From Crambe crambe (Eukaryota; Porifera; Demospongiae; Poecilosclerida; Crambeidae), in assembly GCA_963924555.1 (NCBI GenBank), contig OZ004591.1:3658001-3722000 (forward strand): a DNA stretch of 64,000 nucleotides. The letters are read 5' to 3'. Of the stretch, positions 11,687 through 55,263 are shown piece by piece (the stretch's first letter is position 1; each line of letters begins with the position of its first letter). The notes below the pieces were generated by a model, which did no database searches, was not told where the DNA came from, and worked only from the letters and a program-made list of their open reading frames with translations. The translations under genes were made by a program, and so were the position numbers.

Positions 11687-11964
11687 CCATACAATAGATT
11701 GTACGTAGTCTGTATACGGTGGATTGCAGGTTGCTTGACATATACTTCAGCCAGCAAGGTCACATGGACCAATCAGATTCATGCTGACATCATTGCCTGC
11801 AAATCTGATTGGTCCATGTGACCTCCGTGGCTGAAGTACTAGTGTCAAGCAACCTGCAATCCACTGTACACAATCTACGGTTATTGCTTCGCAAGTAGCC
11901 TCTACTGCGCATGCACAATAATTGGGGTCGAAGGGCACGTTGTAGCGTAGTGTAACAAGGGGAG
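11660..11964. promoter_or_regulatory. Divergent promoter shared by the two receptor genes
   Basis: Only 305 bp separate the two start codons, and the genes are transcribed away from each other. Most of the interval is the foldback element at 11690-11880. This carries a CCAAT box on each arm: GGACCAATCAG at 11766-11776 and its inverse at 11805-11815. Both match the NF-Y consensus RRCCAATSRS. No TATA box was recognised. Promoter function and any co-regulation are inferences from position and motif. Confidence 0.5.
11690..11880. repeat. Foldback element in the divergent promoter
   Basis: Arms of at least 60 bp (about 11719-11780 and 11802-11864) are inverted copies separated by a loop of about 20 bp. 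Weaker similarity extends to TAGATTGT at both outer ends. Confidence 0.8.
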
Positions 11965-21254: not shown

Positions 21255-24200
21255 TCAGTTAATAGTAATTTTGAAGGGGCTGTTAAGAACTTGCTTTTCA
21301 TTCCATGTCACTTGAATGGTGTAAGTCCCAGGCTTCTGAGCTAAATAGCTGGCTAACAGAACATGCTTCCTTGCTGGATCTTCTTGTAAGTTGACTTGGA
21401 ACTGTCCTGGTCCGGTGACATTCATCATGATGGTTCCATATCCAGCTCCTTCGGTTTCAATGGTAAAAGTGCCTTCTTTTCCGACCATTCCTCCTTGCAG
21501 TCCAGGTCCATAAACCTTTACATTCTCAGGTTTGGAGGATTGAAGCACATCAATTTCAAACGGTGTTCCTTCAATGATTGTTCCATTCCAACTCACTTGA
21601 ACTACATATCTCCCAAGGTGTTCAAGGTGAAGCATGCAGTCATAGAAGCCTTTGCCAGTTACCTGGTAAGACCCCACAACCTGTCCAGCTTTTTTCGAAT
21701 AAGCAGTGACTTCTAGTTTTCCTTTAGATAGACGGATCTTGGGCTTGAAAGAAAACTGAATAGCTTTTCCTTGTTCAGCAGATGTTGGCAATTTGAGGGA
21801 TTTTTCAACTTTTATGATATTTTTTGGTGAAGAACATTCAACATTGAAGGGGCATCCTTGAATAGGCTTGCCATTCCAGTAGAGTGAGATCTTGAAACTC
21901 CCACTTTTCTTGACCAGATATTTGACTTCATACTTGAGTGATGATGGCTCAACAAGATTGAGAACCGGATCTGAGGCAATAGAATCCTCATCATCAAAAG
22001 ACACGGTTAGTTGTCCAGCTTCTTTTGTATGAACTACAAAGCTGCTCCATGAACCCACAACTCCTCCTGCTATGCCATCACCGTCAACTCTGCACTGAGT
22101 TTCATAAAGCGATTCTGTGAAGTAGCTGAGTGAGAAATTTCCCCCACCAAGTTGTACCTCTTTTGGTTTTATCTTTACCATGCATTTTACGGTCAGAAGA
22201 TACTCCAACTCATCAGTTGGCACATATTCAAGTGAGTACTGACCTCCCAGCAGTTGACCAAGTTGTACTGGTATTTTCTGATTGGTAGAGGAAGTCTCCA
22301 TGCTTGCAGACATGTTGGAGAGCTCTGTTCCCGCTGGAGGAGTGAACCCAAACGAGATGTTTGAAGAAGGTTGAACAAAGTTTACATTGAAAGGACTACC
22401 AATTACATCATATCCATTATATTTAACAGAGATGGTAGTTGCTCCAGCTTGTTTAGGAACGATAGCACAGATGTAGGCTTGTTCTTCACTACTGAAAGAG
22501 GTCTTGATATCTGCAAAATCTTCCGTACAGGCTACTTCCAGCTTTCCTTCTTGCAATTGGTTGCAAGCAGCAGTGAACTTGTATGATACACCCACTTGAA
22601 GAGTTTCTCCTTCAAAGTCCACCCCAGCGATTCCACTGAAATTAAAGAATAGGGGGTTTCCTTGTACTTTCTCATCGTTCATGAAAATGTCAAGCCTACA
22701 TGATCCCATAACAGTGGGCTTGATGGTGCAAATGTAGATGTCATTTCCCATCCCCTTCAGATTTATGTCTGCTTTCCCTTGGCCATTCTGATAGATTTTA
22801 AGGATACCACTGCTGACGTTCTTTGCTTCAATGTAAAATTTGATAGTGTTTCCAAGAGGTGTAGATTCTTTGGGGATGTCTGAAAATTTGAGATTCTTGA
22901 TGCTCCCATTTGGTACACCTATGATGTATACAGAACTCTCTATACCCATTTTGATATCTTCAATGTTTTCATGAACATTGCTTGTATCACTTGTAGGACT
23001 TTTATCAGGTTCTTCGATAGCAGCAACTACTACTGAGAACGGACTGCCTGGAATATCTTTCTCTGACCACTGGACATTAAATATGTGGTCTCCAGACACA
23101 TTGGGTACAAATTCTACAGCATATGTGGCATCTTTGTTGTCAGTAACGTGGAATTCTGGTTCTGGCTCATCTGGGTTCGTGCTTGGTACTGTCACATTGA
23201 GCCGAAGCTTACCAGTACCAGCTTCTTTGGCATCTACTATGAAAGATATGGGTTCATCCACAATGTTAGAAGTGGTGAGATCCCTAAGTTGGCAATTTTC
23301 AGCTCTTGGTGGATTCGGTAGAAATTGGAGGTCAAATGGACTACCTCGAATATTCTCACCATTCAGGAGCAAATACAAGGAGCAAGTTCCAGGGACTATA
23401 GGTGTAATCTTGCAACTAAAGATGCCCTCTCCCACATGGATGATTCGCACATCAGCCTTTCCTTCACCTTTCTGCTCCACCTTCAGTGTTCCATAGGCAA
23501 TATTGGTGGAACCGATATCAAGGTCTATTGTTGTACCAATGGGTATGGGCTTTTCAAGTTTAGTCAAGCTGATTGGGAGAATGAATACTTTCCCTGACTC
23601 TGACAATTGCTTTGTTGCAACGATTTTGAATGGGCTGTTTTTGATGTTGCTGCCATTCTTCTTGGCACTAACCAGATAATCCCCAGGGACTGTAGGAATG
23701 AAATTCAAACCATAAGAGCTCTCGATTTGTTCGATTATGTTGAAAGTGCAAGGACCTTCTGGCCCATCAATGTAAATGACCATGTTTTCGAGTGTCAAGG
23801 TATTGTCTCGTGGGATGAGAAGACAAGTAGGCTGCTTGTATTCCACATCACTTGGAAGTGCTTCTTTTGGGTGTTTGAAATCAGGTGACAGATGCTTGAG
23901 ATCTACTGCCTTAATGAGGAATGGGCTATCTCTGACTCCATCTTCATGAATGAGTAAATTGAGAATGTAGTCATCTGCCACAGTAGGAGTGAATCGGATT
24001 GAGCATTTCTTGTCTCTCATTTGTATGACTGGACGATCCCTGCTTTTTGTCTTCTGTGGTTCCACTGTAACTTTGATGAAATCAGCTTCTTCATGCCTCC
24101 CAACATTTAACACGTCAAAGCACACAGTTTGACCGACTGGTACAATGGTGGTGTAAGGACCGAGGTTACTCTTGATGAAAGGTACTCTCTTGCCCACTTC

Positions 24201-27200
24201 CACTCTGAATGGTGAATGAGGAATCCTCCTGTCATTCCAAGTGATATCAAACATATGGATTCCAACTACTTCTGGCACGTGCTGAACGGTGTGAGTGCCG
24301 TCATTATTGTTGGTGACAGTGAGCTCTCCAGCTTTCCCTTTCTTGGGAGGGATGACTTTCACCTTCAGTTGAGAGATGCCTGCATTGGTGGTGTCCACAA
24401 TGAAACTGGAAGGCTCGAGTATATAAGCTTCTGCTTGAACTTCATGTACAACTACCGCATGAGGATTTGGTGCAGAAGCATAGCGAATGGAAATAGGACT
24501 GTTTGGAATTTCTTTTTTCCTCAAATAGATGTGAAGAGAATAGAGCCCTGGTGTTTTGGGTCTGAAGAAGAAACTGAACTTGCCCTTCTCCACTTTGGTG
24601 ATGGTGCCCTTGAGGCGGACACCAGAATCATTGTGGATAACTTGGCAGCTTAGGTCAGCCAATATGGCATCCAAATACACTATGTGTGTGATGTGTTTGC
24701 CATTGGGATACACAGGAATGGGTTCAACTTGAAACAAGAGGGGTGAGTTAGGAATTTCCTCACCAGACCAAGCCAAATTTAGAGTGTGTGTACCGGGAGC
24801 ACTAGGAATGTAAGTAACGTCTAGTATGTGCTTCTCCATGGGATTAGGTTTAGCTTCGAGAATGGATTCACCGCTGGGAGACTTATCTCTGATAGTAAGC
24901 TTTCCATTTCCAGCTAGCCTTGTATCCACCATGAAGACAATCTTATTTCCCACATAAAATGAAGATGGGAGGAGTTCCAGGCCCTGTATCTTGCATTTAG
25001 GTGCAGCAGGAGGAGCATTCTTGATCTCTACCCGCAGAGGTGTGTTTGGTACTTGCTTATCATCCAATTTGGCATTGATTTCATAACATCCAGTGATTGC
25101 TTCAAACAGCGATTCAAAGGTATCATCGCCTACCATCATTGTTTCAACATCGAAAGTCTCTCTGGTCTTGGTATTAGTAGCTGTGACAACCAGGGCTCCA
25201 TTTTTCTGCTGGATTGTCCTGGCCTTAATGGAAATAACGATCACTTGATCTGCAGTGGTAGAGATGTTACCAGAGGTAGGAAATTGTATATTCTGCCTTT
25301 CTCCTGTGCGGTCCATTAAGTAGAGCTTAGCAATCATTTGCTTATCTGCAATTTTCTTAACTTCCAGCTTGAATGGACTGTTGGGGATGGGTATTCCTGA
25401 CCAGAGTATGAGGATGGTGTAGGAGTCTGCAGCATCTGGAATGAAGACTATGGTGTAAGTTCCATCTCCATTGTAGCTCACCCTTGCACTTCCTTTCTCT
25501 TTCTTTTTTGATCCAATGGTTTTTACTTGTAGTTCCCCATCACCTGCTTCTTTAACATCAATAACAAACTTTAGTTCTTCCCCTACAAAGCAGTGGTTGT
25601 CGAGACCTATGACCTTGCAGGCCTCAGGTTTGGCAGGTTTCCCATACTGGATAACAAAAGGGCTGATGGGTAGTTCCTGTTCATTTGAATATATGTATAT
25701 GAGATACAATCCGGAGATCTCAGGACTGAAGCTGATCTGGTACTTTCCCTTTTGAATTTTGCTAAATTGTCCTTTCATTTGTGCTCCAGTATTGTTGCAG
25801 ATGATCTTGACTTTGAGGTCACTCTGCTTGCTGTCTGAATAGAATTCTTTGACAACAGTTTTTCCATAGTAGAAGAGCTCTGTTTTGCTCACATTAAAGG
25901 AAAAGAAGTCGAAACTAGATCCTGGTATTGGTTTTCCAGCCCAAGTGAAATCAAGATAGTGGTAGCCATGTGAGTAGGGAATGTACTCGATTTCAATAAT
26001 GGCTTTCTCTCCAGTTCTTTCACGAGTTTTGAGGATGGATTTGTTATTATCATCTGCTGGGCGACGTGAAATGACTTCCAGTTTACCATCTCCTGCATCA
26101 CTGGTGTCAATCAAGAGAGTAATTCGCTTCCCCATTTCGATAACTCCAGATAAATCTTCACGGCCAATGATCTTGCACTTGGAGGGATCAGTTCGAGGCA
26201 TCACATAGACGACTACGAATGGAGTGTTGGGCACGTCAATGCCATTGAGTTTGATGGTCACTAGGTAGCGGTCAGGCTTCGATGGATTGAAGCGAACGAG
26301 GAATGTTTCATCAGGAGGCCTTGAGATATTCACCAATGCTTCTCCAGTCACATCTCCAATGATAGTGGCTGTCAGCTTCCCATTCCTCTGTTCTTCACTC
26401 TCTGGTGTGACCTTGATGTGAAGAGTTTGGCCAATAAACTTGGTGACCTCATTGAGCAGATTGTATTGAGGGATGTGCTCTTCCACATTTTCATCTATAG
26501 GAACCACTATAGAACCCCTTGGACGAGATTTTCCACCCTTTACTTCCTTTTCAATAACAGACACATTGAAAGGACTGCCTGGAATATTCTCATCTGACCA
26601 CTGGACATTGAATATGTGCTCTCCAGGTACATTGGGTACGAACTCCACATCAAATGTTTTATCTTTATTTTGCACAACATGGAATTCTGGTTCTGGCTCA
26701 TCTGGAATTGTGCTTGGTACTGTCACATTGAGGCGAAGTTTACCAATGCCAGCTTCTTTGGCATCCACTGTGAAAGATATCGGCTCATCTACAACATATG
26801 AAGTTGTGAGATCTCTCAACCTGCAATTTTCAGCTCTAGGTGGGCTTGGTAGGAATCGAAGATTGAAAGGACTTCCCTGAATGCTTTGGCCATTCAAAAG
26901 CAAGAAGAGAGAACACATTCCAGCAACTATAGGTGTGATCTTACAGGTGTAGATGCCATTACCCATATGGATAAGTTGTATATCAGCCTTTCCATCACCT
27001 CTCTGCTCCACCTGAATGGTTCCATGGCTAGCACTGGTTGCGTCTATCTTCACCTCCACTGTTGTACCAATAGGTATGGGATTTTCAAATACACTCAAGC
27101 TGATTGGGAGAATGAATACTTTATCTGACTCTGATAATTGCTGTGTTGTGACGATTTTGAATGGGCTGTTTTTGATGTTGCTGCCATTCTTCTTGACACT

Positions 27201-30200
27201 AACCAGATAATCCCCAGGGACTGTTGGAATGAATTTTAAACCATAAGAGCTTTCGATTTGGTTGACTGTGTCAAAAGTGCAAGGACCTTCTGGCCCATCA
27301 ATGTAAATGACCATGTCTTCGAGTGTCAAGGTATTGTCTCGTGGGATGAGAAGACAAGTAGGCTGCTTATATTCCACATCACTTGGAAGTGCTTCTTTTG
27401 GGTGTTTGAAATCAGGTGACAGATGCTTGAGATCTACAGCCTTAATGAGGAATGGGCTATCTCTGACTCCATCTTCATGAATGAGCAAATTGAGAATGTA
27501 GTCATCTGCCACAGTAGGAGTGAATTGGACTGAGCATTTCTTGTCTCTCATTTGTATGACTGGACGATCCCTGCTTTTTGTCTTCTGTGGTTCCACTGTA
27601 ACTTTGATGAAATCAGCTTCTTCATGCCTCCCAACATTTAACACGTCAAAGCACACAGTTTGACCGACTGGTACAATGGTGGTGTAAGGACCGAGGTTAC
27701 TCTTGATGAAAGGTACTCTCTTGCCCACTTCTACTCTGAATGGTGAATGAGGAATCCTCCTGTCATTCCAAGTGATGTCAAACATATGGATTCCCACTAC
27801 TTCCGGCACGTGCTGAACGGTGTGAGTGCCGTCATTGTTGTTGGTGACAGTGAGCTCTCCAGCTTTCCCTTTCTTGGGAGGGATGACTTTCACCTTCAGT
27901 TGAGAGATGCCTGCATTGGTGGTGTCCACAATGAAACTAGAAGGCTCGAGTATATAAGCTTCTGCTTGAACTTCATGTACAATAACTGCCTCAGGATTTG
28001 GTGCAGAAGCATAGCGGATAGAGATTGGACTGTTAAGAATTTCTTTCTGCTTCAAATAAATGTGAAGAGAATATAGTCCAGGTACAGTAGGTGTGAAGAA
28101 GAAACTGAACTTGCCTTCTCCCACTTTGGTGATTGTGCCCTTGAGTCGGATACCAGAATCATTGTGGATAACTTGGCAGCTTAGGTCAGGCAATATGGCA
28201 TCCAAATACACTATGTGTGTGATGTGTTTGCCATTGGGATACACGGGAATGGGTTCAACTTGAAACGAGAGAGGTGAGTTAGGAATTTCCTCACCAGACC
28301 AAGCCAAAGTTATGGTATGTGTACCAGGAGCATTTGGAACATAAGTGACATTAATCATGTGCTGTTCAGAAGTACGTGGCTTTGCTTTGATGATTGCAGG
28401 TGACTTGCTATTGATGATAAGCTCTCCATTGCCGGCTAGCCTGGTATCCACCACAAAGATGATCTTGTTGCCCACATAAAATAGAGATGGGAGAAGGTCC
28501 AGACCAAGAATCTTGCACCTGGAAGCAGCTGGGGAGGCAATCTTGAAATCCACTCCGAGTGGTGTGTTTGGAACTTGCTTGCTGTCCAGTTTAACATTGA
28601 GGACATAGCTTCCAGCAATGGAGGTGGTAAAGAGCACCTCAAAGGTATTGTCGTTGACCCTCACAGTTTCAACATCAATGCTCTCCCTGGTGGCTGTATT
28701 TGTTGCAGTAGCAATGATAGTTTCATCCTGCTGATAAACAGTTTGAGATTTCATGGTTAGAACTATTGTATTATCAGCAGTAGTAGAAATATTACCACCT
28801 ATTGGAAAGTTGATTTGCTGCCTTGTTCTTGCACGATCCATTGAGTAGAGTTTGGTGATAAGCTGCTTATCCATCATCTCTTCGACTTCCAAGTGGAATG
28901 GGGCATTTGGGATGAGATTATCGGACCAGAACACATATATATCGTAGCTACCAATTGTGTCTGGAGTGAAAACTACAGTGTAGGTTCCATCTCCATTATA
29001 GATCAATCTCACAGTTCCTTCAAGTTTTGTTTTGGATGCTATAGGTGTTACTCGCAGCTCGCCATCACCTGCCTCCTTGACGTCAACGATGAACTTGAGC
29101 TCTTCCCCCGAGAAGCAGTAGTTGTCGAGGTTAACAACTTTACAAGCTTCTGGTCTCGCAGGTCTCCCGTACCTGATGACATAAGGACTGGATGGAAGCT
29201 CTTTGTCATTGGCATAAAGGTGAACCAGGTATAGCCCAGACATCTCTGGACTGAAACTGATCCTGTACTTCCCCTTCTGGATCATGGTGATCTTTCCGTC
29301 TACAAGCTTGCCAGTTTCGCAGAAGATAATCTTGAACTTGAGGTCACTTAGTTTGTAGTTTGAGTGGAATTCCCTCGATGCAGCCTTTCCATTTATAACG
29401 AGATCTGTTTTGCTGGTGTCGGATGAAAAGAAGTAAAAACTGGACCGTGGAATTGGTTCTCCATCCCAAGTGAAGTCAATATAGTGGTAACCATGTGATT
29501 TGGGTGTGTAGTTTATTTCAAATACGGCCATCTCTCCAGGTCTCTGATGAATGTCCAGGATGGATCGGTTGCTATCATCTGCTGGTCGGCGGGTAACAAC
29601 CTCCAGTTTACCTGATCCTGCATCACTGGTGTCCACCAAGAGGGTGATTTGTCTTCCTACTTCAATCAGTCCATGGAAATCTTCACGGCCAATGATCTTA
29701 CACTTGGAGGGATCAGTTCGAGGCAGTATGTAAACAACTATGAAGGGAGTGTGTGGTATGTCAATACCATTGAGTTTGACGGTCACGAGGTAGCGATCGG
29801 GCTTTGATGGATTGAAGCGAACGAGGAAAGTTTCATCAGGAAGCCTTGAGATGTTCACCACAGCCTCTCCAGTCTTATCTCCAATGACGGTGGCTGTCAG
29901 CTTTCCATTCCTCTGTTCTTCACTCTCTGGTTTGACTTTGATATGAATGGCTCGGCCGATGTATTGAACGATCTCCTTGGTGGAGGATTGAGGGATGATC
30001 TCTTTAGTACCCTCGTCAATCTCGGGTTTCACTGGCTCATCTTCTTTTCCTGGAGAAGAGTAGCGAATGTGGATTGGACTGTTTGGGATCTCCTTCTTGT
30101 TGAGATAAATGTGAAGAGAGTAGAGTCCAGGGACTGTGGGTGCAAAGAAGAAATTGAATTTTCCCTTTCCTACTCTAGTGATAGTTCCCTTGATATGGGT

Positions 30201-33200
30201 GCCAGAGTCGTTGTGGATAATCTTACAGCTCAGTTCGCTCAAAATAGCATCCAGATAGATTATGTGAGTGATGTGCTTGCCACTGGGATATGTGGGAACA
30301 GGTTCAACCACAAAGGAAAGTGGTGAGTGAGGGATTTCTTCTCCAGACCAAATCAAACTCAGTGTGTGCGTGCCGGGGACAGCTGGAGCATATGTGACAT
30401 CAATGATGTGCTGGTCTGAGGGACGTGGCTTCGCTTCAATGTAGGCTTTGCCTTCTGATGTCTTGCCATTGATGACGAGTTCTCCACTGCCAGCCAACCT
30501 GGTATCCACTGTAAAGGAAATCTTGTTGCCCACGAAAAATTGTGCAGGAAGGAGTTCTAGGCCAAGAATCTTGCACCTGGAGGCAGCTGGGGAAGCGATC
30601 TTGAACTCTACTCCAAGTGGCGTGTTTGGTACTTGTTTGTCATCCAGTTTCACATCAAGTACATAGCTTCCAGCGATGGAGGTAGTAAAGAGAACTTCAA
30701 AGGTGTCATCGCTAACCATCACCGTTTCAACTTCAGTACTCTCTCTGGTGGACGTGTTTGTAGCCACTGCACTAAGGACCCCATTTCTCTGCTGTTCTGT
30801 TCTGGTCTTGATGGAGAAAACAACGGTCTGATCCGATGTTGTGCTGATGACACCTGCAGTTGGAAATTCTAAGTGCTTCCTTGTTCCAGCACGGTCCATC
30901 GAGTAGAGTTTGGTGATAAGTTGCTGTTTCACACTTTCTCTCACCTCCAGTTTGAATGGGCTGTTGAGGATGGGCATTCCTGACCAGAGTATGAAGATGG
31001 TATAGGTATCTGCGGTGTCCGGTTTGAAGATCACTGTGTAAGTTCCATCTCCATTGTAGATGACTTTGGCACTTCCTTCCACTTTCGTTTTTGATGCAAT
31101 GGTCCTGATTCGTAGCTCACCATCGCCTGCTTCTTTGACGTCTACAATGAATTTGAGCTCTTCCCCTGAGAAGCAGTGATTGTCGAGGTTAACGATTTTG
31201 CAGGCTTCTGGTCTGGCTTGTCTCCCGTACCGGATGACGAAAGGACTGGATGGAAGTTCCTCGTCATTGGCATAAAGGTAAACTAGGTACAACCCAGAGA
31301 TTTCTGGACTGAAGCTGATCCTGTACTTCCCCTTCTGGATCTTGGTGATCTTTCCGTCCACGAGTTTTCCAGTTTCACTGAAGACAATCTTGAATTTGAG
31401 GTCACTTAGTTTGTAGTCTGAGTGGAATTCCCTCGATGCAGCCTTTCCATAGAAGAAGAGTTCTGTTTTGCTGGTGTCAGCTGAAAAGAAGTGGAAACTA
31501 GACCCTGGAATTGGTTTTCCGTCCCAAGTGAAGTCAAGGTAGTGGTAACCATGTGATTTGGGCGTGTAGCTTATTTCAAACACGGCCATCTCTCCAGGTC
31601 TTTGACGAATGTCCAGGATAGATCTGTTGTTGTCATCTGCTGGTCGGCGAGTAACAACCTCAAGTTTGCCAGTTCCTGCATCACTTGCATCAACCAACAG
31701 AGTGATCAGTCTTCCAAATTCGATCAGTTCATGGAAATCTTCACGACCGAGGATCTTGCACTTGGAGGGATCAGTTCGAGGCATCTTGTAGATGACTACA
31801 AAGGGAGTGTGTGGCACATCAATACCATTGAGTTTGACAGTCACGAGGTAGCGATCGGGTTTTGATGGATTGAAGCGAATGAGGAAAGTTCCATCAGGAA
31901 GTCTCGAGATATTCACCAATGCCTCTCCAGTCCTCTCGCCAATGACAGTGGCCATCAGCTTTCCATTCCTCTGTTCTTCACTTTCTGGTGTGACTTTGAT
32001 GTTAATAGCTCGGCCAATGTATTGAATGATCTCCTTGGTGGAGGACTGAGGGATGATCTCTTTGGTACCCTCGTCAATCTCGGGTTCCACTTGCTCATCT
32101 TCCTTTCCTGGAGAAGAGTAGCGAATGTGGATTGGACTGTTTGGGATCTCTTTCTTGTTGAGATAAATGTGAAGAGAGTAGAGTCCAGGAACCGTGGGTG
32201 CAAAGAAGAAACTGAACTTTCCCTTTTCTACTCTAGTGATAGTTCCCTTGATATGGGTGCCAGAGTCATTGTGGATAATCTTACAGCTCAGTTCGCTCAA
32301 AATAGCATCCAGATAGATTATGTGAGTGATGTGCTTGCCACTGGGATATGTGGGAACAGGTTCCACCACAAAGGAGAGTGGTGAGTGAGGGATTTCTTCT
32401 TCAGACCAAATCAAATTCAGTGTGTGCATGCCAGGGACGGTTAGAGCATAGGTGACATCAATGATGTGCTGGTCTGAGTGACGTGACTTTGCTTCAATGT
32501 AGGCTTTGCCTTCTGATGTCTTACCGCTGATGACGAGTTCTCCACTGCCAGCCAACCTGGTATCCACTGTAAAGGAAATCTTGTTGCCCACGAAAAATTG
32601 TGCAGGAAGGAGTTCTAGGCCCAGAATCTTGCACCTGGAGGCAGTTGGGGAAGCGATCTTGAAATCTACTCCGAGTGGCGTGTTTGGTACTTGTTTGTCA
32701 TCCAGTTTCACATCAAGTACATAGCTTCCAGCGATGGAGGTAGTAAAGAGAACTTCAAAGGTGTCGTCGCTGACCATCATAGTTTCAAGGTTGGTACTCT
32801 CTCTGGTGGACGTGTTTGTAGCTACTGCACTAAGGACCCCATTTTTCTGCTGTTCTGTTCTGGTCTTGATGGAAAGAACAATGGTCTGATCCGATGTTGT
32901 GCTGATGACACCTGCAGTTGGAAATTCAAAGTGCCTCCTTGTTCCAGCACGGTCCATCAAGTAGAGTTTGGTGATAAGCTGCTGTTTCACATTTTCTCTT
33001 ACCTCCAATTTGAATGGGCTGTTGAGGATGGGCATTCCTGACCAGAATATGAAGATGGTATAGGTATCTGCGGTGTCCGGTTTGAAGATCACTGTGTAAG
33101 TTCCATCTCCATTGTAGATGACTTTGGCACTTCCTTCCACTTTCGTTTTTGATGCAATGGTCCTGATTCGTAGCTCACCATCGCCTGCCTCTTTGACATC

Positions 33201-45200: not shown

Positions 45201-48200
45201 TGTTGTTCTGGTTTTGATTGAGAGAAGAATGGTCTGATCCGATGTTGTGCTGATGACACCTGCAGTTGGAAATTCTAAGTGCCTCCTTGTTCCAGCACGG
45301 TCCATCGAGTAAAGTTTGGTGATAAGCTGCTGGTCCTTGCTTTCTCTCACCTCCAGTCTGAATGGGCTGTTAGGGATTGGCTTTCCTGACCAGAATATAA
45401 AGATTGTGTAATTATCTGTTGTGTCTGGAGTGAATATCACTGTATAAGTTTCATTTCCATTGTTTATTACTCTTGTTTTTCCTTCTGCTTTTGTTCTAGA
45501 TGCAATTGGTATTACTCGTAGTTCTCCATCACCTGCTTTTTCGACATTCACGATGAACTTCAATTCTTCCCCATAGAAGCTGTGATTGTCAAGGTTTATG
45601 ACTTTACAGGCTTCTGGTCTTGCAGGTTTTCCATAACGGATGACAAAAGGACTGGATGGTATTTCCTTATCATTGGCATAGAGGTGTACCAGGTACAACC
45701 CTGGAATTTCAGGACTGAACTTGACTCTATACTTTCCCTTTTGGATCATGTTGATTTTCCCATCAACAAGCTTTCCAGTTTCACTGAAGATGATCTTGAA
45801 TTTGAGGTCATTGTAACTGTGATTTGAGTGGAATTCCTTCACTGCAGCCTTTCCATAGAAGACAAGATCTGTTTTGCTGGTTTCGGCAGAAAAGAAGTGG
45901 AAACTAGATCCTGGAATTGGTTTTCCATCCCAAGTGAAGTCTAGGTAGTGGTAACCATGCGATTTGGGTGTGTAGCTTATTTCGAACACAGCCATCTCTC
46001 CAGGTCTCTGATGAATGTCCAGGATGGATCGGTTGTTGTCATCTGCTGGTCGGCGGGTAACAACCTCCAGTTTACCAGGTCCTGCATCACTGGTGTCCAC
46101 CAAGAGGGTGATTTGTCTTCCTACTTCAATCAGTTCATAAATATCTTCACGGCCAATGATCTTGCACTTGGAGGGATCAGTTTGAGGCAGTATGTAGTTA
46201 ACAATGAAGGGAGTGTGTGGTACATCAATGCCATTGAGTTTGACAGTTACTTGGTAACTGTCAGGCTTTGTGGGATTAAACTGAACCAGAAACGTTTCAT
46301 CAGGAAGCCTTGATATATTTACGATAGCCTCTCCTGTCATTTTCCCAATGACAGAGGCTGTCAATTTTCCATTCCTTTCTTCATCACTCTCTGGTCTGAC
46401 TTTTATGTGTAAAGCTCTGCCAATGTATTGAGTGACCTCCTTAACAGAAGGGTCTGGAGGAACAATTACTTTCTCATTTCCCCATCCACCTGTTTGTGGC
46501 TTTGGAACTGCAGGAGTAGGACGTTCAGCAGCAGAATAGTAGTGCACGTAAAATGGACTAGAAGCTACCTCAGCTCCATTCAGTAGGATATTGATAACAT
46601 AGTGATCAGCTTTTGATGGATTGAATTTGATTGAAAATATTCCTTCAGAATCTTGACTGATATTTACTTTCCCAAGACCAGTGTTCTGTCCAATTACTTT
46701 AGCTTCTATGGTACCATTTCTTTGTTGAATATTAAGAGGCTTGACTTTGATTGAGAGTGTTTCACCAACTTCCATCTCCATTTCATTTTTGCTGTCACTA
46801 GCATGAGGATCAGAAATACTTGGTACATGAACCATGAGCTCACTCTTTAGAACTTCAATTCCATTCACTTCGACAGAAATTGTATAAAGATCTGGACTAG
46901 ATGGGTTACAGATGATATCAAAAGTGTTGTATGATTGCTTCACAATTTTGGGCTTTAAAAGTCCTGTTGATCTCCCAGTGATATCAGTAGTGATTTTTCC
47001 ATCTCCCATATCATCTCCAAGCTTAACACGAATAATGGTGACTTCATTGATGGTCATTTTCACTGCTTGTGTAAAGTCAACTCTTTTCTCTACTTCCGTG
47101 CATTTCCCCAAGTTTTTCACAGTAAACATTTCTGTGTCAACTTCAAATGCTTGGGCAAGCACTGAGAATGGGCTTCCTGGTATACTTTTGCCTCCCCAAG
47201 TGATGGTAAAGCTGTGAAGACCCAGAGAATATGCAGTGTAGGTTATAAGATGAGTATCATCCCCATTATCAGTGATTGTGTAACTATATCTCTCTGTCTT
47301 GAGCTTTGATTTGATAGCTAGCTCACCTGTACCAGCACCAGATGTATTAACAAGAAAACGTAAGGGATGATTGAGATAGCATTTGCCACTAAATCCCTCA
47401 ATGGTGCATGCTTCTGCTTTTCCTGGCTCATTATAATTGAGAATGAAGGGACTACCAGGTAGTGGGCTATCTTTGATGGAAACGTGAATGAAATATAATC
47501 CAGGGTCACGTGGATCGAAGGAGAGTTTGTACTTGATTCCACTGAACTTGACGATCTTGACTTTGAACTGTGCTCCAGTATCATTGTGGACAGCATGTGC
47601 TTTCAAATCTCCTAATTCACAATCAGCATCAATGTCATAGCTGATAGTCTTACCATAGGAGAATCTTCCAATAGTTTTGCTGTCCAGTGCCTGGATTCGA
47701 AGGAGGGCCCCTGGTATTGGCTGTTTGGACCAGAAAACGGTAATGCTGTATGAACCAGATGTTTGAGGTTTGAAAATAATATCATACAGCCCTCTCTCTG
47801 GTCTTTCAACTATGTAGATTACTGGTTGTTTATCTTTGACTTGAGGGCCATCAACTTCAACATAAAGCTCACTTGAACCAGCATCTTTGGTATTGATAGT
47901 GAAGATTATTGGTCTATTCACAAGAACGATATCTTCAATGCGAGGAATGCGAACCACATTACATTTTGAGGCATCTGCAATAGAGGCTTCTATTTCACCC
48001 GTTTCTGGCTCAACACCAGGACGCATATCGATTAAGAAGGGTGATCCTCTCACATGCACGTCATTGTATGTAACGTTCAAATGGTACAAGTCTGCACTCT
48101 GAGGATTGAAAGTGACCGTAAATGTCCTTCCACAACACTTGGTCACATTCACAGGTGTTTCACCAGTTTTTCCCCCTGTACAAGTGGCCTTAAGCTCACC

Positions 48201-49771
48201 AGATCCAGCACTTAATGCATCAAGAAGAAGCTGAACTTCTTCACCTGGAATTGTGTAAATTGGAAGGGCACACTCCACTGCTTCTGGCTTTGCAGGAGGA
48301 AGGAGATCGATTGTGAATGGTGAACCAGGCACTGGTTCCCCATCCCAATTCACATCCAATGTATAGATATCAGCACTGGGTGGTTTGAAAGTGAGTTTGC
48401 ATTCCTCTTTATTCTCTTGGTCAACTTCCAGAGACACAGGGCCACAGGTTTCACCCACTGCATTGGCACTAAACCTCCCCCACAGTACATCTACAGTGTA
48501 GATATCAGGTATAGGAGGGGCAAATGAGATGACGTATGTTCCATTAGACTCCAGCTGCACCTTGATTGGCACCTTTCCTTTGATGTCACCACTGGCATTG
48601 GCTTTCAATTTACCAGAACCAGCATCAGCAGTATCAAAGGCAATGGAGACATCATCTACAGCTTTCTTTGGGGCTGAAGTCTCGACGTGTTTCACTTTGG
48701 TGGGATCTGGTGGATAGAGGTTGACCAGGAAAGGTGACCCAGGGATGTGCTTGTCAGCATAAAAGATGGATAGATGGTAGACGTCAACTTCAGGAGGCGA
48801 GAAGAGGATGTGGTATCGGTTGCACTCACCCATTTCATCATTAATTTCCTTCACAGTGGTGGGCACGTTCCCCACCTGATTACCATGCACCTCAGCTCTC
48901 ACAGCGCCATTGCCAGCATTAGAAGTGTCCAGCTCTACCCAAACGTATTTCCCTTCACCTACAGTTCTGGGAATCTGGAGTTGTCCCACTTCTACTTTGT
49001 CAGCTGCAGGAGGGATCAAGACTCGAGTGCTAACTCCCTGGATTTTAGAGCGGTAGAACTGAGAGAGGTAGCTAAGCCGAGTTGCCTGATTCAGAGTGGA
49101 ACTGGCAAACTGCTCAGCTGAGACTATCCGGCGTATGCCCAGAATCTTTTCAGCTGCAAGCATGCTTTTTCCTACCTTGTCAGTGGGATTGAGATTCTTC
49201 AGTTCAGTTTTGGGTTGGAATTTCCCTCCAGACACAACACTCACAAGGTCCCCAAGAAGTTTTCCATCTGTCCAGTCCTGAGAGAAATTTTCCACTTTGG
49301 TGTTTGGAATAAGTGCTTTGATCCATTCCAACAGGACCTTCTGTCCATAAGGAATGAAGTAAGACAGGTAAGCTAGAATGCTGCGCTCATCTGACTTTCC
49401 AGATACAAAATCTTCAACATCAACTAGTTGAGGGATCCCCAACTGCATCTCAGCAAGATTCATTGCATTACGGACATTGGTCAACGCATCAGAGAGTTCC
49501 AAGGTGTCATATTCCGGAATGCAGTCAGGGCAGCAGTAATTGAGGAGTGCTAGGAGCATGCATCCATCTTTCCAATCAGAGTCAAAGTTGGTAACTTTGA
49601 AGTCAGTTAGGATGCAGTTAATCCAAGTAAGAAGATCTCGTTTGATGCCTGTCATCACAACATCCTGTGTTGCAGCAGGTGGAATGATGTAACGCAGTCC
49701 ATAATGGACGATGAGGCTCCACATGAGGTTCAAGATGGCACATTGATTGTGCTCCAGGATATCACAAGGTT
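21255..49771 (-). CDS. Giant filamin/jitterbug-like actin cross-linker, main exon (9,504 codons)
   Basis: One open exon of 28,517 nt, from acceptor CTATAG|AA at 49771 to TAA at 21255-21257. Numbering from codon 49733: residues 1-20 end CH1 (ILNLMWSLIVHY); about 25-125 is CH2 (LLTWINCIL, DWKDGCMLLALL); about 130-235 is CH3 (LLEWIK, DWTDGKLLGDLV). About 94 filamin Ig repeats follow, recognisable by DAGxGxL near the start, F.P..xDxYxxxV in the middle and IPGSPF-like endings. They fall into eight N-terminal repeats, nine seven-repeat units (about 1093-7264), five repeats, a tenth seven-repeat unit, five repeats, and six C-terminal repeats. Three CH domains recall Drosophila jitterbug; ordinary filamins have two CH and about 24 repeats. 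The rod would be over 1 MDa, cytosolic and actin-linked (family inference). No TM segment or frameshift was seen. Confidence 0.93.
22940..29990 (-). repeat. 12-repeat block present twice, 3,531 bp apart
   Basis: Super-repeat 9 plus five distinct filamin repeats is followed by a diverged tenth unit plus the same five repeats. Matching landmarks lie at 27747 and 24216 (3,531 bp, 1,177 residues). Within it, 23.75-24.45 and 27.28-27.98 kb are close to identical, while the flanks differ much more. Confidence 0.85.
27940..46455 (-). repeat. Nine-unit tandem array of 2,058-bp (686-residue) super-repeats
   Basis: The same landmark inside the second repeat of each unit falls at 46008, 43950, 41892, 39834, 37776, 35718, 33660, 31602 and 29544, exactly 2,058 bp apart. 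Each unit encodes seven filamin repeats in fixed order plus an acidic linker (SPGKEDEPVKPEIDEG). Units at about 38.8-44.9 kb are almost identical at the DNA level. The outermost units (1 and 9) are clearly diverged. Confidence 0.95.
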
Positions 49772-51059
49772 CTATAGTATTATAATTACAAAGTAACTAT
49801 CAGTTTACTAGGGAAATGCAAAGCATTGTGGGGTGAGCATGCATGCTCAGTTATGTCAACCGTATATTGGAACTGGAAGAACGTATGCGCCCTCTCATTC
49901 CACTCTCTAGTGTGAGGTGAATGAAGTGAGCCCCAATAAAAGAAGTAAATAACCCCCCACTGCTGATTCAGGGGATAGAAAACATCGAACTAGAGCAATA
50001 ATTGGAGATTTCACACCCTGGTCAGCAAGCAAGCAAGTAAGTAAAATATTCCCATGCCTTTAGAGCCGATAGGCTCCAACTTATTTATGGTTCGTTATCT
50101 ATATCCGGGGGGATTTTGTAGACATAGATTATAATCATAATCTACATCTTCAGTGATTCATGACCCGAGAGTTAGCTTGGTCACTGCATAGCTAAGCCTA
50201 AGGAGATAAAGCACACACAAATGAGTTGGTACTTTACTTGCTCTTACAAAAATTGAGACAGAAGTACGTTGCTTTGCTCACCAAATGAACACACCCTTCA
50301 TAGTGGCACTTTTCTTTATGGTGGTATGTACATATAGCATACCGCACGTTCATGTACATCCATGTGATACATTGCATGTGTAAAAAAAAAAAGAAAAAAA
50401 AAAAGAAGAGTAGGACTACCATGTAGCTACCAGAAACAACAAGCTAGTAGATTCAAGCAGAACACGTGGAAATTTCAGAGAATTGACCAAAGAGACAGTG
50501 AGAAAGTAACGGACAGAAACAGCAGAGATGACAGTTTGGTAGCGTGCTTCAGGCCATGAGCTACAGGCCATGAAAAAAGCCGAAAGCCAGGAGCACTGAG
50601 AGAACATAGACTAAAGTAAAAAACAGAGACAACAATCTAGTTGAATAAGAAAGCCAGGACAATTATAGCCAGACCACAGAGCACTGACCAGTGAATATAG
50701 GTTGAAAACTCATTACAGGAATTGACATTGAATCATCTAACTCATTTGACATTTACATGCATGAGCCCAGACCTTTCATTAATTACAAAAACAATTTCAA
50801 CTGTGTGCACTAAATATAGCTAGTTACCAGTGCTGAGGCATATAGTCTTTTAAAGACTTATTTCATAGCTCAGCCTCGGAGTTTCACTATTTTAGGACCT
50901 TCAAGCTGTTGCCTATGATGACCTCAGGCTTCGCCCTCGGTCACCATAATAGCAACAGCTTCCTAAAAATTAATAGTGAAACTCCTCGGCTTCGTGCAAT
51001 AACCTACAGGATAGGAATCCAAACTGGATTATTTGAAGAAAGTTAAATTTTTAGACCAC
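49772..51059 (-). other. Intron of the giant filamin gene
   Basis: AT-rich, with a foldback element at 50875-50990 and an A-rich tract near 50382-50405. No coding segment was recognised in it. Confidence 0.5.
50875..50990. repeat. Foldback element, about 115 bp
   Basis: GGAGTTTCACTATTTTAGGA...AAGCTGTTGCCTAT is mirrored by ATAGCAACAGCTTCCTAAAA...AATAGTGAAACTCC, with CCTCGG at both outer ends. The loop is GC-rich. Confidence 0.75.
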
Positions 51060-51140
51060 TAAAATTTGGAGCTATATTATTTGTCTGCAAAAAATTAATA
51101 GCTGATATACCCCTCTTAATTGTCACTTGCTTTGGATAAT
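51060..51140 (-). CDS. Giant filamin gene, second coding exon (middle of CH1)
   Basis: The minus strand encodes YPKQVTIKRGISAINFLQTN followed by NIAPNF. The 3' junction (TTT A|GTGGTC to CTATAG|AA CCT) gives NFKPCDILEHNQ and then ILNLMWSLIVHY. This reproduces the CH1 pattern of filamins (NV..AL.FL...., DI..GN, LGLIW.LILHY) with almost exact spacing. The upstream junction is not resolved: the acceptor at 51140 needs phase 1 and a duplicated acceptor at 51162 needs phase 0, but exon 1 ends in phase 2. The exon call rests on CH1 homology and the good downstream join. Confidence 0.6.
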
Positions 51141-54100
51141 CTGTAAAATTGCTTTGGATAATCTGTAAAATAGTTATTATTATCATATCTAATATGCATG
51201 TACTAGCCTGCCTAACTAAGTCAGCAATTGCAATGAAACAATTAGTGGGCATTAACCGACTTAGACTATGGCCGGCTAAGCGCCCTTACAACATAATGTA
51301 GGTATTCAGCAGTCTTGTTGGGTTTCTACAGGATGTAATTAGTGATCAAGAATATGATTCATTTTTATTTTTGCTGTACACTTTTCTATGTAGTTTTTGA
51401 TTTTAAAGAAATGAAATATAATCATATTCATATACAAATAATTGCATTCTTTTAAAACCACAATGAAACAAAGCATACATAGTCTAATTTCTAAAAAGTC
51501 ATGAAAATTTTCCAATGCAGGCTGTAACCAACAGCAGTTTAGTAGGATGAATCAAGTGTTTACAAACTCTCTTCCTATCTCTCTACCTGCTTCATATTCA
51601 CCCCTTTCAAACTTCATAAGTAGTACTCAGTCATTCGACAATAAGCATAATATTCACCCCATTCAAACTTCTTAAAGTACTCAGTCATTCAACAGTAAGC
51701 ATAATGTACTTTGAAACCATCATCCACTTTACTCTTACCTCCTTCTGATGGCAAATTATTACTTGAGTCCATAGTAAAGAGGACCAACTAGGCCTGCATT
51801 TAGGATTTGACTAAAGGGGCTCCAACATGACTAAGCCGCATGCACAACTAACAGTAAGAATGCACAATCACTAAAATATTATGGAAAACAGACGACTTGA
51901 AAAACCGCAAGAAGGTTAGGAATGCAACTTTGTGCAGGTGGTACACTGACACGAGCAGGTTATACATTTAATAGCATGTAGCTATGATTGTTATAATAGC
52001 TAGTAGGGCAGAAGGCTATAGCTTCAGAGCATAGCTGGTGTTACCAGAACCCTAACTCCAGAGCCTAACCCTTGCCAACTGGTATAAAGACATGTTGAGA
52101 TCTAGATGAGTCAGTGTTGAGAGAGATTACTCACAATCGAAAGTCACGACACCGCATGGTGTATCTGGCTGGATAGCTATAAAATCTTAATAGTGGGTGG
52201 GGCTGGGCTATGGGCTGGACTATCACTGAATTTTTACAAGTGTCTGTAAATGCAGAAGGGTCTGTACTGGGCATATTGTTTTTTCAGATCATGACATCTA
52301 CGGAGGGGATCTGGAAGTACTGAAGTGATCAGTGCTTTCTATATATGCGTGTATCTAGCTAGTTGTCTTATATTAAGTATGCAAGGAAGGAACACAAAAA
52401 GAAGTGTTAGCCTCTCTATAACTGCCACTAGTTCTTGGGAGATTAGCGACCATAGATAAGTTTCCATTGTGGTCTTCATAGCTTATGTGTGTAGTCTCAA
52501 TATCAATCCTAGCTATCTGCAAAACAAGTGGGGGGGGGGGGATTCGGAGCTCAGACAAAAATAGCTGCTTTGGTATCTTTTCGGGGGGTTAGTGAAAATT
52601 TGGAGCCACATGGTATTCACATCTGGATAACTTAAACCACAGTTGTTTTTGTTTTTTTTTTGCTTTTGTTGTTATATTTTCTATAACTTTTTTGTCTCCT
52701 CTGCTTTTTCTCAAGGTATAGGCGAGAAAATCTGATCAGCATTATTATTGTGGTGTTATAAAGAGAAAATCTACTTGGAACAAAAGTACTACCAAGTTTC
52801 ATTTAACACATAACTTATTTTTCTAGTTGTACAGTACTTAAAATTACTGTATAGCATAAGCCACCAATTATCAATCATACTTTACCCCTCGGACCATAGC
52901 TCCCTTACCAATGATCGTCAAAGTCTCAAACAGCAACCATAGAAAAGATAATTTCATCCTCTATAACGTCATATGAATTGTTTTTCTTACAATTGGATAG
53001 AAAATTTTGCTATGCTGAATTTACTACGTCAACTAAAAAATCATTAATTGACAATTTCCGACCAATAATTGTTAATATCAATCATTGCCTCGTTCCATTC
53101 GTTCTTTTAGTTTATAAAATACAATCGTATAAAAAATGGACGAATCTTCTGCTTTACAATTTAATGGTGGAATGGAACTGCTTCAGAATTAAAATGGTTG
53201 TGGTGCATGTATTAATAATTACAATGAGGTTCTGGATAAACAAGGCAGTCTTCATTGGTCTGTGTTTCATATTCCTACAGAATCCAGTCATAACTTATCC
53301 ATACAGTCCTCACTAAATAAGCACCAAATTAAACTCTAAGTTGATAGCTCTCAAGTGATCTTCTTGAATCGTGGCGATGGGTAACATGAGCTAGTAACTT
53401 ACTTTCATACTGCAGTTGATAAAACTTGCTGTTGACGTCCTGTTTTCTCTCTAGAGCTTTAATGCACCATTTTCTTCGACTTCGTTTTACTACCGTAGAC
53501 TTTCCGTATACTAAGTAGTTGATAATAGGTGCTGCAACGGATAGTCTGTAGCTTACACTATATAACTAACAATTGCCATGATCAATTGATATAAAACATC
53601 ACTTAAATATATTGCATGTTGATGTAACCTTCACTCCAAACACAGTGGATAAGTATTCTCTCCAAGTACTGTGGTCGGAAAAGCCAGTTCCTCACAGTCC
53701 CTTCAAACTATCAAGGTAGCTTCCTAAAGTGTCATTATCATGCTTGTGATTGAACTTCAAAGGAAGTGATAACTACACTTAGCAGCACATGAATATCATT
53801 GGTAGTCAAAATGGAACAGATGCTTCATGGTGTTTAAAAATGTGGGGTGATTATCATGAGAACTTGATCACACAAAGGAAAACTTGATCACACTAAGGAA
53901 CATAGGTCTAGACACAACCTCATACATCCCAATTGGCAGATGCATTCGGTGGTTTTGCATGCATCCCAATGATAAATCAATTTTGTAACTACAATTTGGT
54001 TGCATAGATACTCTATGCCTCCTGACATGGATTAGAACAGAAGTTGTGGCATCTTCAACAAGTTCCCTAAATCACATGTTCCTGCTTTTGTAAGGACTTT

Positions 54101-55036
54101 ATTTTATTATCTTAGTCATGGAACAGTCAACTATATTTATGTGCGCATATAACGTGATAAGTAAAGGTCATCAATATTGAATATACCAATGGGATCCCAC
54201 CAGCCTCGCTGAACTATTTGTTTTCCATGTAATGGCTGAGAAATAGATGGTAGCACATGCTTGCTGCAACTTAATATACAGTTTGCTCTTGGAGAAAAAA
54301 CAACAACAAAAAACAACAACAAAACAACAAAACAACATGTATATAGCTAGAAGGTCAAACATAGGGGATAGAGGGGAGGCATCATGTATTTTAGCTAGGA
54401 GTTATGTTATAATTATAAGCACTTGTGCATTGATGTAGACTTTTGTAAGAGAATTTTACTTGTACATAGCTTATTTGCATTATGACACAATGGGTAAATC
54501 CCTATGCTCACTACTAGGGCAATGTGCAACATTTGACAGTGAGCGAACAAGCATTATTTAGTGCTTCAACTCTTTAGAATTTAACAAAGTACTTAAATAA
54601 GCCTAGAGCCTCTACAACTACTACTATAGAATGTGCAGCATTTGACAGTAAGCAAGTGAGCAGGCTCCAGTGCTTGATATTGCTGTCAGAGACAAGAGTC
54701 ATGTAAGTTGTGGTTCCAACAGGGAAGCTCCATACATAGAAAGCTGTAAATACTTACAAGCACTTAGATAAGCCAAGCGCCTACAATCTATTTAGATAAG
54801 CCTAGCGCCTCTATGACAAAAGGCTGTAGAAAACAATCTAGGATTGGAGCATACGCATTATGCACTCGCGCAGCGCTATTATTTATTTTTTCACAATGAT
54901 ACATAATACTTACGCCTAGTCGACCTAGATATACAATTTCAATGAGTCATGACAGCTCGCTCGCTGCAATAAGCCATTGTATTCATTTATACATGATCAA
55001 GTTATAGCTAGCTAGCTAGCTCTTGCATGATTATAC
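51141..55036 (-). other. Large first intron of the giant filamin gene
   Basis: AT-rich and without recognisable coding sequence. It holds a 56-bp direct duplication (ATTCACCCC units at 51596 and 51652), a G tract near 52530, a CAA/CAAA-rich tract at 54298-54340, and imperfect duplications around 54511-54660 (ATGTGCA.CATTTGACAGT) and 54766-54820 (AGATAAGCC.AGCGCCT). Confidence 0.5.
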
Positions 55037-55263
55037 CTTCCAGGCATTTTTTTGACAGGAGCAAGACATTCAAGGAGTTTTATCAAAATGACTCCACTTT
55101 CCAAGTCACTGTCCAAGTTCGTGATCTTTAGTGACTTGCTTTTCAGAGAGTAGTTAACCCAATTGATGGTAGTGCGGGTTTGAGCAGCCAAGCTGTCATC
55201 ATCTTTGCTATGACCAAGTGATAGCATGTTCCTGGACAAGGTGCTGCTTTTGTAAGACATCAT
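55037..55263 (-). CDS. Giant filamin gene, first coding exon (start of CH1)
   Basis: ATG at 55263, with an in-frame TGA just upstream, so this is the likely true start. It encodes about 75 residues: a polar Ser-rich leader, then TRTTINWVNYSLKSKSLKI and LDSDLESGVILIKLLECL, the classic first half of a type-1 CH domain (W.N..L.....I.DL..DL.DG..L..LLE). The donor GGAAG|GTATAA at 55037 leaves phase 2. Together with 51060-51140 and the 28.5-kb exon it completes a three-CH actin-binding region. Confidence 0.75.

Follow-up and report, generated by a model that had tools for sequence, protein, structure and literature searches.

A predicted megadalton filamin of jitterbug type, encoded largely by a single 28.5-kb exon, in the sponge Crambe crambe

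In the filamins described so far the repeat count is 6 for Dictyostelium, 20 to about 23 for the nematode and 24 for people, according to the accessible part of PMC3143143. The vertebrate filamins A, B and C share with the gene analysed here (gene A) a homologous CH2 domain and homologous Ig-like repeats, but differ from it in having two CH domains, 24 repeats, a hinge between two rods and a C-terminal dimerisation repeat 24. In the accessible text of PMC3143143, jitterbug and C. elegans FLN-2 are described as having three CH domains, filamin repeats and a last repeat that is not of the dimerisation type, as is the case here, where the three CH domains are complete in a neighbouring gene, B, while CH1 is incomplete in A. 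FLN-2 has at least 23 repeats in 3,747 aa, as against 94-95 in A, and for the super-repeats and the 28-kb exon of A no counterpart in FLN-2 was found in that part of the source.

Like the exon of gene A, those of titin and the mucin VNTRs are very long and built from repeated units. Titin, however, combines Ig/FN3 repeats with a kinase, whereas no kinase or FN3 family appeared among the 20 and 17 Pfam families listed (E<0.01) for the two halves of A. The available portion of a preprint describes a human GRIN2B exon of 27,303 bp and MUC12 proteins reaching 23,080 aa, whose repeats lie in a single exon (PMC13345508).

Open frame and exon structure of gene A

The window, the whole stretch of 64,000 nucleotides analysed here, comes from Crambe crambe, a demosponge and an animal without muscle; a sponge host had been supposed in the initial annotation. 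Its minus strand holds a stop-to-stop open reading frame of 9,513 codons at 21255-49796. The remaining five frames contain 236-805 stops each across this interval, and a chance or antisense origin was rejected on this ground. The likely splice acceptor, read from the sequence as ATAG/AACC, yields a giant last exon whose length is identical to that first reported for an intronless minus-strand exon:

21255..49771, minus strand: giant last exon of gene A, 28,517 nt including the stop codon TGA
55037..55263, minus strand: exon 1 of gene A, with ATG and the first part of CH1, ending in phase 2 before GTATAA

Across the 28.5 kb of the giant exon we found no stop and no frame change, and the joined 244 kb contain no ambiguous bases (N). 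Inter-repeat linkers were checked for excess length as a sign of hidden introns in the array and none was large; the greatest excess, 41 aa near residue 8922, leaves no space for a sizeable hidden intron between repeats. A viral or bacterial origin was also discarded, as scans of viral_contigs and genome_contigs with a 1,170-residue query returned no relative.

With exon 1 counted and exon 2 left out, the predicted product has a mass of 1,062 kDa. The proposal of a protein above 1 MDa is thus borne out, but 'titin-scale' was too strong a term, since titin has roughly three times this mass. The longest exons of MUC16 and titin are indeed shorter than that of gene A. It does not surpass every human exon, since the coding exon of human MUC12 alleles can exceed 28,517 nt in the accessible part of the preprint (PMC13345508).

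Repeat arrays of gene A, its neighbour B and their relatives

A filamin-type Ig-like repeat of about 96 aa forms an array in A. The Pfam CH and Filamin search that had been suggested as a check, run on the two halves of A, returned 44 + 44 Filamin stretches and 2 CH domains. A local filamin profile, with A and B themselves in its training set, recovered 95 repeats, 94 of them with a domain E<1e-3, in agreement with the family assignment and the count of about 94 first given. Three regions can be distinguished:

46179..49004, minus strand: N-terminal cap and next repeats, about 10 filamin repeats outside the array (residues 265-1206)
27657..46178, minus strand: array of nine 686-aa units of seven repeats each (residues 1207-7380)
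21258..27656, minus strand: second-tier block and C-terminal cap h-m-o-n-p-k (residues 7381-9513)

Among core copies 2-8, 0.6-5.2% of sites are different; for the outer copies the figure is 15-33%, and the outermost units are the most diverged. The predicted structure of one unit is a string of beta domains with a mean pLDDT of 67; its pTM of 0.35 means that the packing of the domains is not fixed by the model, which was too uncertain for packing to be read from it. A Foldseek search with the predicted unit gave titin as first match, with filamin chains among the best matches.

Upstream of A, within a filamin cluster, lies a second giant, gene B, with an open frame of 9,238 codons on the same strand; only its end falls within the window, 7.6 kb from exon 1 of A. 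Both genes exceed ordinary filamins well over threefold in length, and in both nearly all of the protein comes from a single exon. The cluster also holds a shorter member, gene C:

62819..64000, minus strand: 3' end of gene B, which continues past the window to C14:3753611 (window coordinate about 95611)
C14:3810738-3819065, same strand and same cluster: gene C, 2,776 codons, 26 repeats

Gene B is built from about 5 copies of a 1,439-aa unit, compared with about 9 copies of the 686-aa unit in A, and the pair carry 88 to 95 filamin repeats each. Both trees join A and B as a fully supported sister pair; the C-cap tree leaves their nearest relative undecided. Over 575 columns, the five B blocks nearest to the unit of A share about 55% identity with it. 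A mixed tree of A and B units was dropped, as short local matches had been mixed with full copies. In both A and B, growth came from a multi-repeat block that was amplified in frame between single-copy caps.

Arrays of this kind are prone to over- or under-counting, the copies in B are 99.7-99.9% identical across 4.3-kb units, and the copy numbers of both genes come from one assembly. It is nevertheless very unlikely that the array length of A is an assembly product concealing an ordinary, or merely large, filamin with fewer copies: its copies diverge to the extent given above, the assembly combines HiFi and Hi-C data at QV 58.1 (PMC12166358, accessible part), and giants occur in other assemblies too. 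The misassembly concern voiced at the outset carries little weight for A, whose core copies are up to 5% different; for B it is a real one as regards copy number.

These giants are seven database proteins from public assemblies (P0002-P0008; 5,403-7,863 aa, 52-76 repeats), which have the same modules and the same caps or close variants, but are shorter than A and B and differ in unit length. A common domain grammar joins all nine, and the N-cap order l-g-g-e-b-c-a is present in seven of them. The longest protein among the matches listed has 7,995 aa and none of those listed is the size of B, which could reflect a ceiling near 8,000 aa in the database or the end of a contig. The database contains gene C with 100% identity (P0026, on a contig of 1,008,879 bases), and the 2,852-aa Filamin-C of Geodia barretti is 49% identical to C. 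Gene C resembles A in its three-exon head plan, its cluster and strand, and in the domain order of its C-terminal part, l-g-e-d-b-c-a-i-.-h-m, but has no super-repeat array. The giant paralogue next door, the super-repeat architecture and the relatives in other assemblies had all been missed by the initial annotation.

The A locus could instead yield several shorter proteins, through internal promoters or exitron-like splicing, and not one megadalton chain. Other filamin genes do have internal isoforms (FLN-1C and FLN-2C/D, in the accessible part of PMC3143143), but the single uninterrupted frame with repeats throughout, and a frame likewise open in B and in the seven database proteins of 5.4-7.9 kaa, make this rather unlikely. 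What we regard as probable, from the sequence, is that A is a protein-coding jitterbug-type filamin, made giant by about nine in-frame copies of a seven-repeat block in one very long exon.

The CH head, the last repeat and selection

Ahead of the repeats, A has CH2 and CH3 whole, and of CH1 just the first part and the tail:

49341..49643, minus strand: CH2 domain, matching the second CH of filamin A and alpha-actinin actin-binding domains
49050..49343, minus strand: CH3 domain, by CH match
49772..55036, minus strand: stretch between exon 1 and exon 3, in which no CH1 middle exon is detectable

Exon 1 has a CH match of 31.4 bits (cut-off 26) over profile positions 3-46/109. In gene B, CH1 is spread over three exons with matching phases, which when joined give a full CH match (57.8 bits, profile 5-107/109), and CH2 and CH3 are also matched; these matches point to a head of the three-CH jitterbug type, whole in B. 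The middle exon is present in all five cluster paralogues examined (B, C, E, F and G) at 54-68 bits, with leave-one-out scores of 19-47 bits for B, C, E and F, whereas the same profile reached 0.9 bits at best between exons 1 and 3 of A, against a shuffled maximum of 7.2. A hand-picked candidate near window 51057-51140, of weak likeness and with the wrong acceptor phase, failed the profile test against shuffled controls. Splicing exon 1 directly to exon 3 is out of frame, with a stop at codon 79. A whole actin-binding CH1-CH2 pair is thus absent from the gene model of A, though present in B. The CH domains first noted are confirmed as two whole ones, in a head that looks to be of the three-CH and not of the two-CH filamin type; with the middle exon of CH1 not found in A, 'actin-binding' is not secured as a description.

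The actin-binding head of A may therefore be incomplete, or its start may be internal. Either an unrecognised exon would complete CH1, or translation would start in the giant exon, where ATG codons lie near CH2 at ORF residues 25 and 48, in which case A would rely on CH2-CH3 alone, the full head being retained in B.

Among copies of A, dN/dS is 0.15-0.35 in all 36 pairs of nine fixed-phase copies, which places them under purifying selection. For core copies 2-8, dN/dS is 0.15-0.31 at a dS of 0.02-0.14; by these distances they are younger than the A-B split, or have been homogenised since. Between A and B, dN/dS is 0.25-0.37 in four of five regions, exon 1 giving 0.37; the highest value, 0.67, falls in the 40-codon CH1 tail, with just 17 differences.

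The raised value in the CH1 tail, the frame-breaking exon 1 to exon 3 splice and the middle exon kept by every paralogue examined would all suit an A that has lost CH1 and starts near CH2, acting as a spring or ruler that is anchored through binding partners of the rod and not through actin, by analogy with the FLN-2C and -2D isoforms of nematode FLN-2, which lack the actin-binding domain (PMC3143143, accessible part). We hold this to be unlikely though credible: exon 1 looks constrained and keeps its CH match, and an exon 2 that is very short or diverged might go undetected by the profile. It is quite unlikely that A is a recently dying gene, with the loss of CH1 exon 2 as first lesion and the frame open by inertia. 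The neighbouring copy, gene G, is already disrupted by stops in each of the three frames, but the low dN/dS kept by the core copies of A and its intact 28.5 kb speak against such decay.

At the other end, the last repeat of A matches rod chains (6e-17 for the best single repeat, up to 3e-30 for three-repeat chains) better than dimerisation chains (3e-9 at best, to 2e-7), whereas in a control the tail of a canonical Crambe filamin found dimerisation repeat 24 first (3cnk, 9e-16). By this comparison the last repeat falls outside the dimerisation type; dimerisation through it is unsupported, and A probably makes no V-shaped dimers by this route.

A long rod and its meaning for sponge filamins

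Under the preferred reading, a protein-coding giant of jitterbug type, the product would be cytoplasmic and rod-like, with about 94 Ig-like repeats in a row. Its length would be about 300 nm, by simple scaling from filamin A, whose 24 repeats span roughly 80 nm. With the CH region as its N-terminal anchor, such a rod could present the same binding faces many times over and might act as a long scaffold that bears force in the actin cortex or in contractile bundles.

Among the matches listed from titles and abstract starts of the open-licence literature we found no description of giant filamins, which does not prove absence. New here are the giant B, the block amplification, the selection on A copies, the seven related proteins, the three-CH head, the non-dimerisation last repeat and the missing CH1 exon. 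The relatives have no protein name in the database, so such genes may be overlooked elsewhere.

We tentatively suggest that sponges have a class of megadalton filamins in which the caps are conserved and rod length is set by lineage-specific, still active block amplification, with A possibly a headless elastic scaffold, lacking the actin-binding CH1, beside a headed B. If so, rod length would be an evolvable, perhaps polymorphic, trait. A filamin pair of 88 to 95 repeats, together with its relatives from several further assemblies, would show that megadalton cytoskeletal giants exist in an animal without muscle, and that a rod can be lengthened by duplicating blocks within a single exon, and would provide a tractable case for the effect of extra length on a mechanosensing scaffold.

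The giant filamin gene and its genomic surroundings

On the minus strand, an open reading frame (ORF) of 9,513 codons occupies window 21255-49796, where the other five frames contain from 236 to 805 stops. Counted from a splice acceptor read from the sequence (ATAG|AACC, 49772/49771), the last exon of this gene, gene A, measures 28,517 nt including its TGA, exactly the intron-free length proposed in the initial annotation, and the host is, as supposed there, a sponge (the demosponge Crambe crambe). Pfam recognised 44 filamin stretches per half, together with two calponin-homology (CH) domains. A local filamin profile, which was built from filamin repeats of the Crambe genome and was therefore partly trained on A and its neighbour B themselves, gave 95 repeats (94 with E<1e-3), close to the earlier figure of about 94. 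The chain comprises 9,580 residues (1,062 kDa) if exon 1 is included and no exon 2 is assumed.

The last exon exceeds those of MUC16 and titin, and this part of the original comparison stands. A 2026 preprint (PMC13345508) describes an exon of 27,303 bp in GRIN2B and MUC12 proteins reaching 23,080 aa, and holds that in some people no coding exon is larger than the one with the MUC12 repeats; on that account the exon of A is very long but not the longest known.

The assembly analysed (143.14 Mb in 119 contigs, with the window at C14:3658001-3722000) differs in its totals from the published odCraCram1.1 (143.20 Mb, 124 scaffolds; PMC12166358), and is thus a slightly incomplete or slightly different version. 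The published data combine PacBio Revio and Hi-C (QV 58.1), and the term 'gene annotation' is absent from the main text of that paper (PMC12166358). Next to A lies a second giant filamin gene, B, the last 393 codons of which form the open frame at the window's right edge; its ORF ends 7.6 kb from A exon 1.

Features of the window and of the filamin cluster
10285-11085 and 11159-11746 (-): open frames; a beta-helix match to the first is weak and falls short of the cut-off
20402-20956 (+): 185-aa RS-rich ORF in convergent orientation to A, whose 3' end is about 300 nt distant; no Pfam match at E<=0.001
21255..55263 (-): gene A (exon 1, 55037..55263; last exon, 21255..49771)
60804-61907 (+): hAT transposase fragment (Dimer_Tnp_hAT) between A and B
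C14:3720822-3748535, same strand as A: gene B, ORF of 9,238 codons, 87-88 filamin repeats (local profile)
Beyond B, same strand: gene D, ORF of 1,319 codons, 13 repeats
Beyond B, same strand: gene C, ORF of 2,776 codons, 26 repeats
Beyond B, same strand: gene E, ORF of 1,534 codons, 13 repeats
Beyond B, same strand: gene F, ORF of 1,653 codons, 14 repeats
C14:3848162-3855621 (about window 190162-197621): G, a broken filamin copy beside F, with 64, 231 and 88 stops in three frames over 7,460 nt; the middle exon of its first CH domain (CH1) is still recognisable

Outside the cluster, the longest filamin-matching ORF listed has 2,907 codons (150 of 624 candidates scored). An ORF of this length at C10:5618289-5627712 belongs to a separate three-CH filamin, ordinary-sized and jitterbug-like. 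Among the same 150 of 624 candidates, many filamin-matching ORFs of some 700 aa lie on C1, C3, C5, C9, C10 and C17, and would form a large, possibly TRIM-like gene family.

Probable repeat amplification between conserved ends

The repeat period is 686 aa in A, whose nine units (residues 1207 to 7380) each hold seven repeats, and 1,439 aa in B, with five units of fourteen. Repeat types were defined by clustering 685 repeats from eleven proteins at a single threshold, and their order was compared in nine giants: A, B and P0002-P0008, the database giants in which the grammar of A was checked. All nine share the N-terminal order l-g-g-e, followed in seven by b-c-a; the C-terminal order is h-m-o-n-p-k in six, with the variants m-n-s-k, h-m-o-n-k and h-m-o-n-s-k in the other three; and the middles use the same modules in differently composed units. 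Gene C, which is not a giant, has l-g-e-d-b-c-a-i-.-h-m-v-n-s-k once, at its end. Compared one repeat at a time, A and B show 72-97% likeness over the first seven (one exception, 66%), 44-71% across the middle and 73-84% over the last five. We read this as different blocks having been amplified separately in A and in B between conserved ends. The first filamin repeat (A residues 264-359, B 289-384) is 97% identical, most later ones being about 45-70% identical, and here gene conversion is possible.

For nine copies of the A unit, taken in a fixed phase from residue 1101, dN/dS lay between 0.15 and 0.35 in all 36 pairs. Core copies 2-8 are 94.8-99.4% identical to one another and 83-85% identical to copy 1; copy 9 is 67-71% identical to the other eight, and its pairs are less trustworthy, as this copy contains indels and the comparison was ungapped. 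The four full, in-phase B copies used are 99.7-99.9% identical; as no pair shows more than 13 differences, their dN/dS values (0.04-1.17) carry little meaning. Between A and B, dN/dS was 0.37 in exon 1, 0.67 in the CH1 tail (40 codons), 0.34 in CH2-CH3, and 0.29 and 0.25 in the single-copy ends flanking the array (N-cap and C-cap). The values for A copies and A-B regions are those that would be expected from a working protein; they do not in themselves prove expression.

Giant relatives in other assemblies

Residues 1-1100 of A retrieved 24 proteins, 15 of them with filamin repeats (5,403-7,863 aa) and nine nesprins, and residues 7100-9513 retrieved 13 at E<=1e-50, including four new ones, of up to 7,995 aa. 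Together these give 19 different giant ORFs in which filamin repeats occur; at E<1e-3 the count is 52-75 in 18 of them and just 23 in P0016. A and B were joined in both cap trees, with full support in the N-cap tree, where P0003 was nearest (82/86); in the C-cap tree P0003, P0005 and P0007 stood beside them without resolved order. Gene C is 62% identical to P0082 over 60% of it, 49% identical to Filamin-C of the sponge Geodia barretti and, among the 120 matches listed out of 253, 23-26% identical to proteins of named animals other than sponges. We infer that the giant relatives come from sponges.

In all nine giants, the median likeness of repeats within a protein (74-100%) exceeds that to the best-matching repeat in a different assembly (53-68%; gene C, the C10 gene and A-B comparisons left out), which fits repeated, lineage-specific amplification or homogenisation. 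P0009-P0012 are ORFs of about 6,700 aa with CH domains and about 67 filamin repeats. Each closes at its C-terminus with a further CH1, cut off after two-thirds of its length at KLVNIGK or KLVNIGE, as though the next gene of a tandem array began there in the same frame; these may be fused filamins. In the giant ORFs P0013 and P0015 the tail is canonical-filamin-like, and super-repeats recur every 474 aa (82% identity at this lag) and 473 aa (79%), respectively; the rod thus seems to have been amplified in a further filamin class as well.

Head, tail and possible role of the protein

Exon 1 of A encodes the first part of CH1, and the giant exon (exon 3) begins with the CH1 tail, followed by CH2 and CH3. 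In B, a 101-nt middle exon of matching phases links exons 1 and 3, and once the three are joined CH1 is matched in full (57.8 bits). Seven filamin genes of the Crambe genome supplied a profile of the middle exon, and the corresponding introns of B, C, E, F and G scored 54-68 bits against it; with B, C, E or F omitted from the model in turn, the scores were 19-47 bits. Because G, although not used for the model, is closely similar to F, it is no independent control. The best score in the matching intron of A was 0.9 bits (100 shuffles: median 2.9, maximum 7.2), and the best on both strands of a wider 12.3-kb neighbourhood was a chance-level 7.4 bits, from an 11-residue match lying beyond exon 1. 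Since the middle exon went undetected and splicing exon 1 directly to exon 3 brings a stop at codon 79, the CH1 of A is probably incomplete. Filamin CH1 carries the primary actin site (PMC3143143), and the incomplete CH1 is the strongest result against naming A an actin-binding filament absent further proof.

Against human filamin chains, the last repeat of A matched rod repeats (multi-repeat chains to 3e-30, a sum over repeats; best single repeat 6e-17, 2di9) better than the dimerisation chains 8pa0, 1v05, 3cnk and 2eed (3e-9 to 2e-7), the first three of which we take to be filamin repeat 24. As a control, the canonical Crambe filamin tail near C14:5.22 Mb matched 3cnk best, at 9e-16. According to PMC3143143, 2eed is filamin repeat 24, the last repeat of FLN-2 is without dimerisation residues, and FLN-2 shares with jitterbug a set of three CH domains. 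In A the last repeat is likewise not of the dimerisation type, and the head would follow the three-CH plan but for its probably incomplete CH1; A would therefore work most like a jitterbug-type filamin.

Structure prediction for one 686-aa A unit, from an alignment of nine window copies, gave beta domains throughout (mean pLDDT 67, pTM 0.35). Foldseek placed a titin I-band fragment first, then filamin A 3-5 and 19-21, with TM-scores that are low because domain packing is unsure; the predicted unit supports an Ig-like fold only.

Coding potential, domains, selection, a paralogue and relatives of A are all documented in these data, and its product may act in the cytoplasm as a long scaffold that bears force and has multiple sites. 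Sponges are contractile animals, and their contractile actin bundles sit in pinacocytes (PMC9287330, the main text of which does not mention filamin); in Halisarca, filamin is highest in adults, in an account that leaves giants unmentioned (PMC13291127). Together these make it plausible, and nothing more, that A acts at the contractile cortex.
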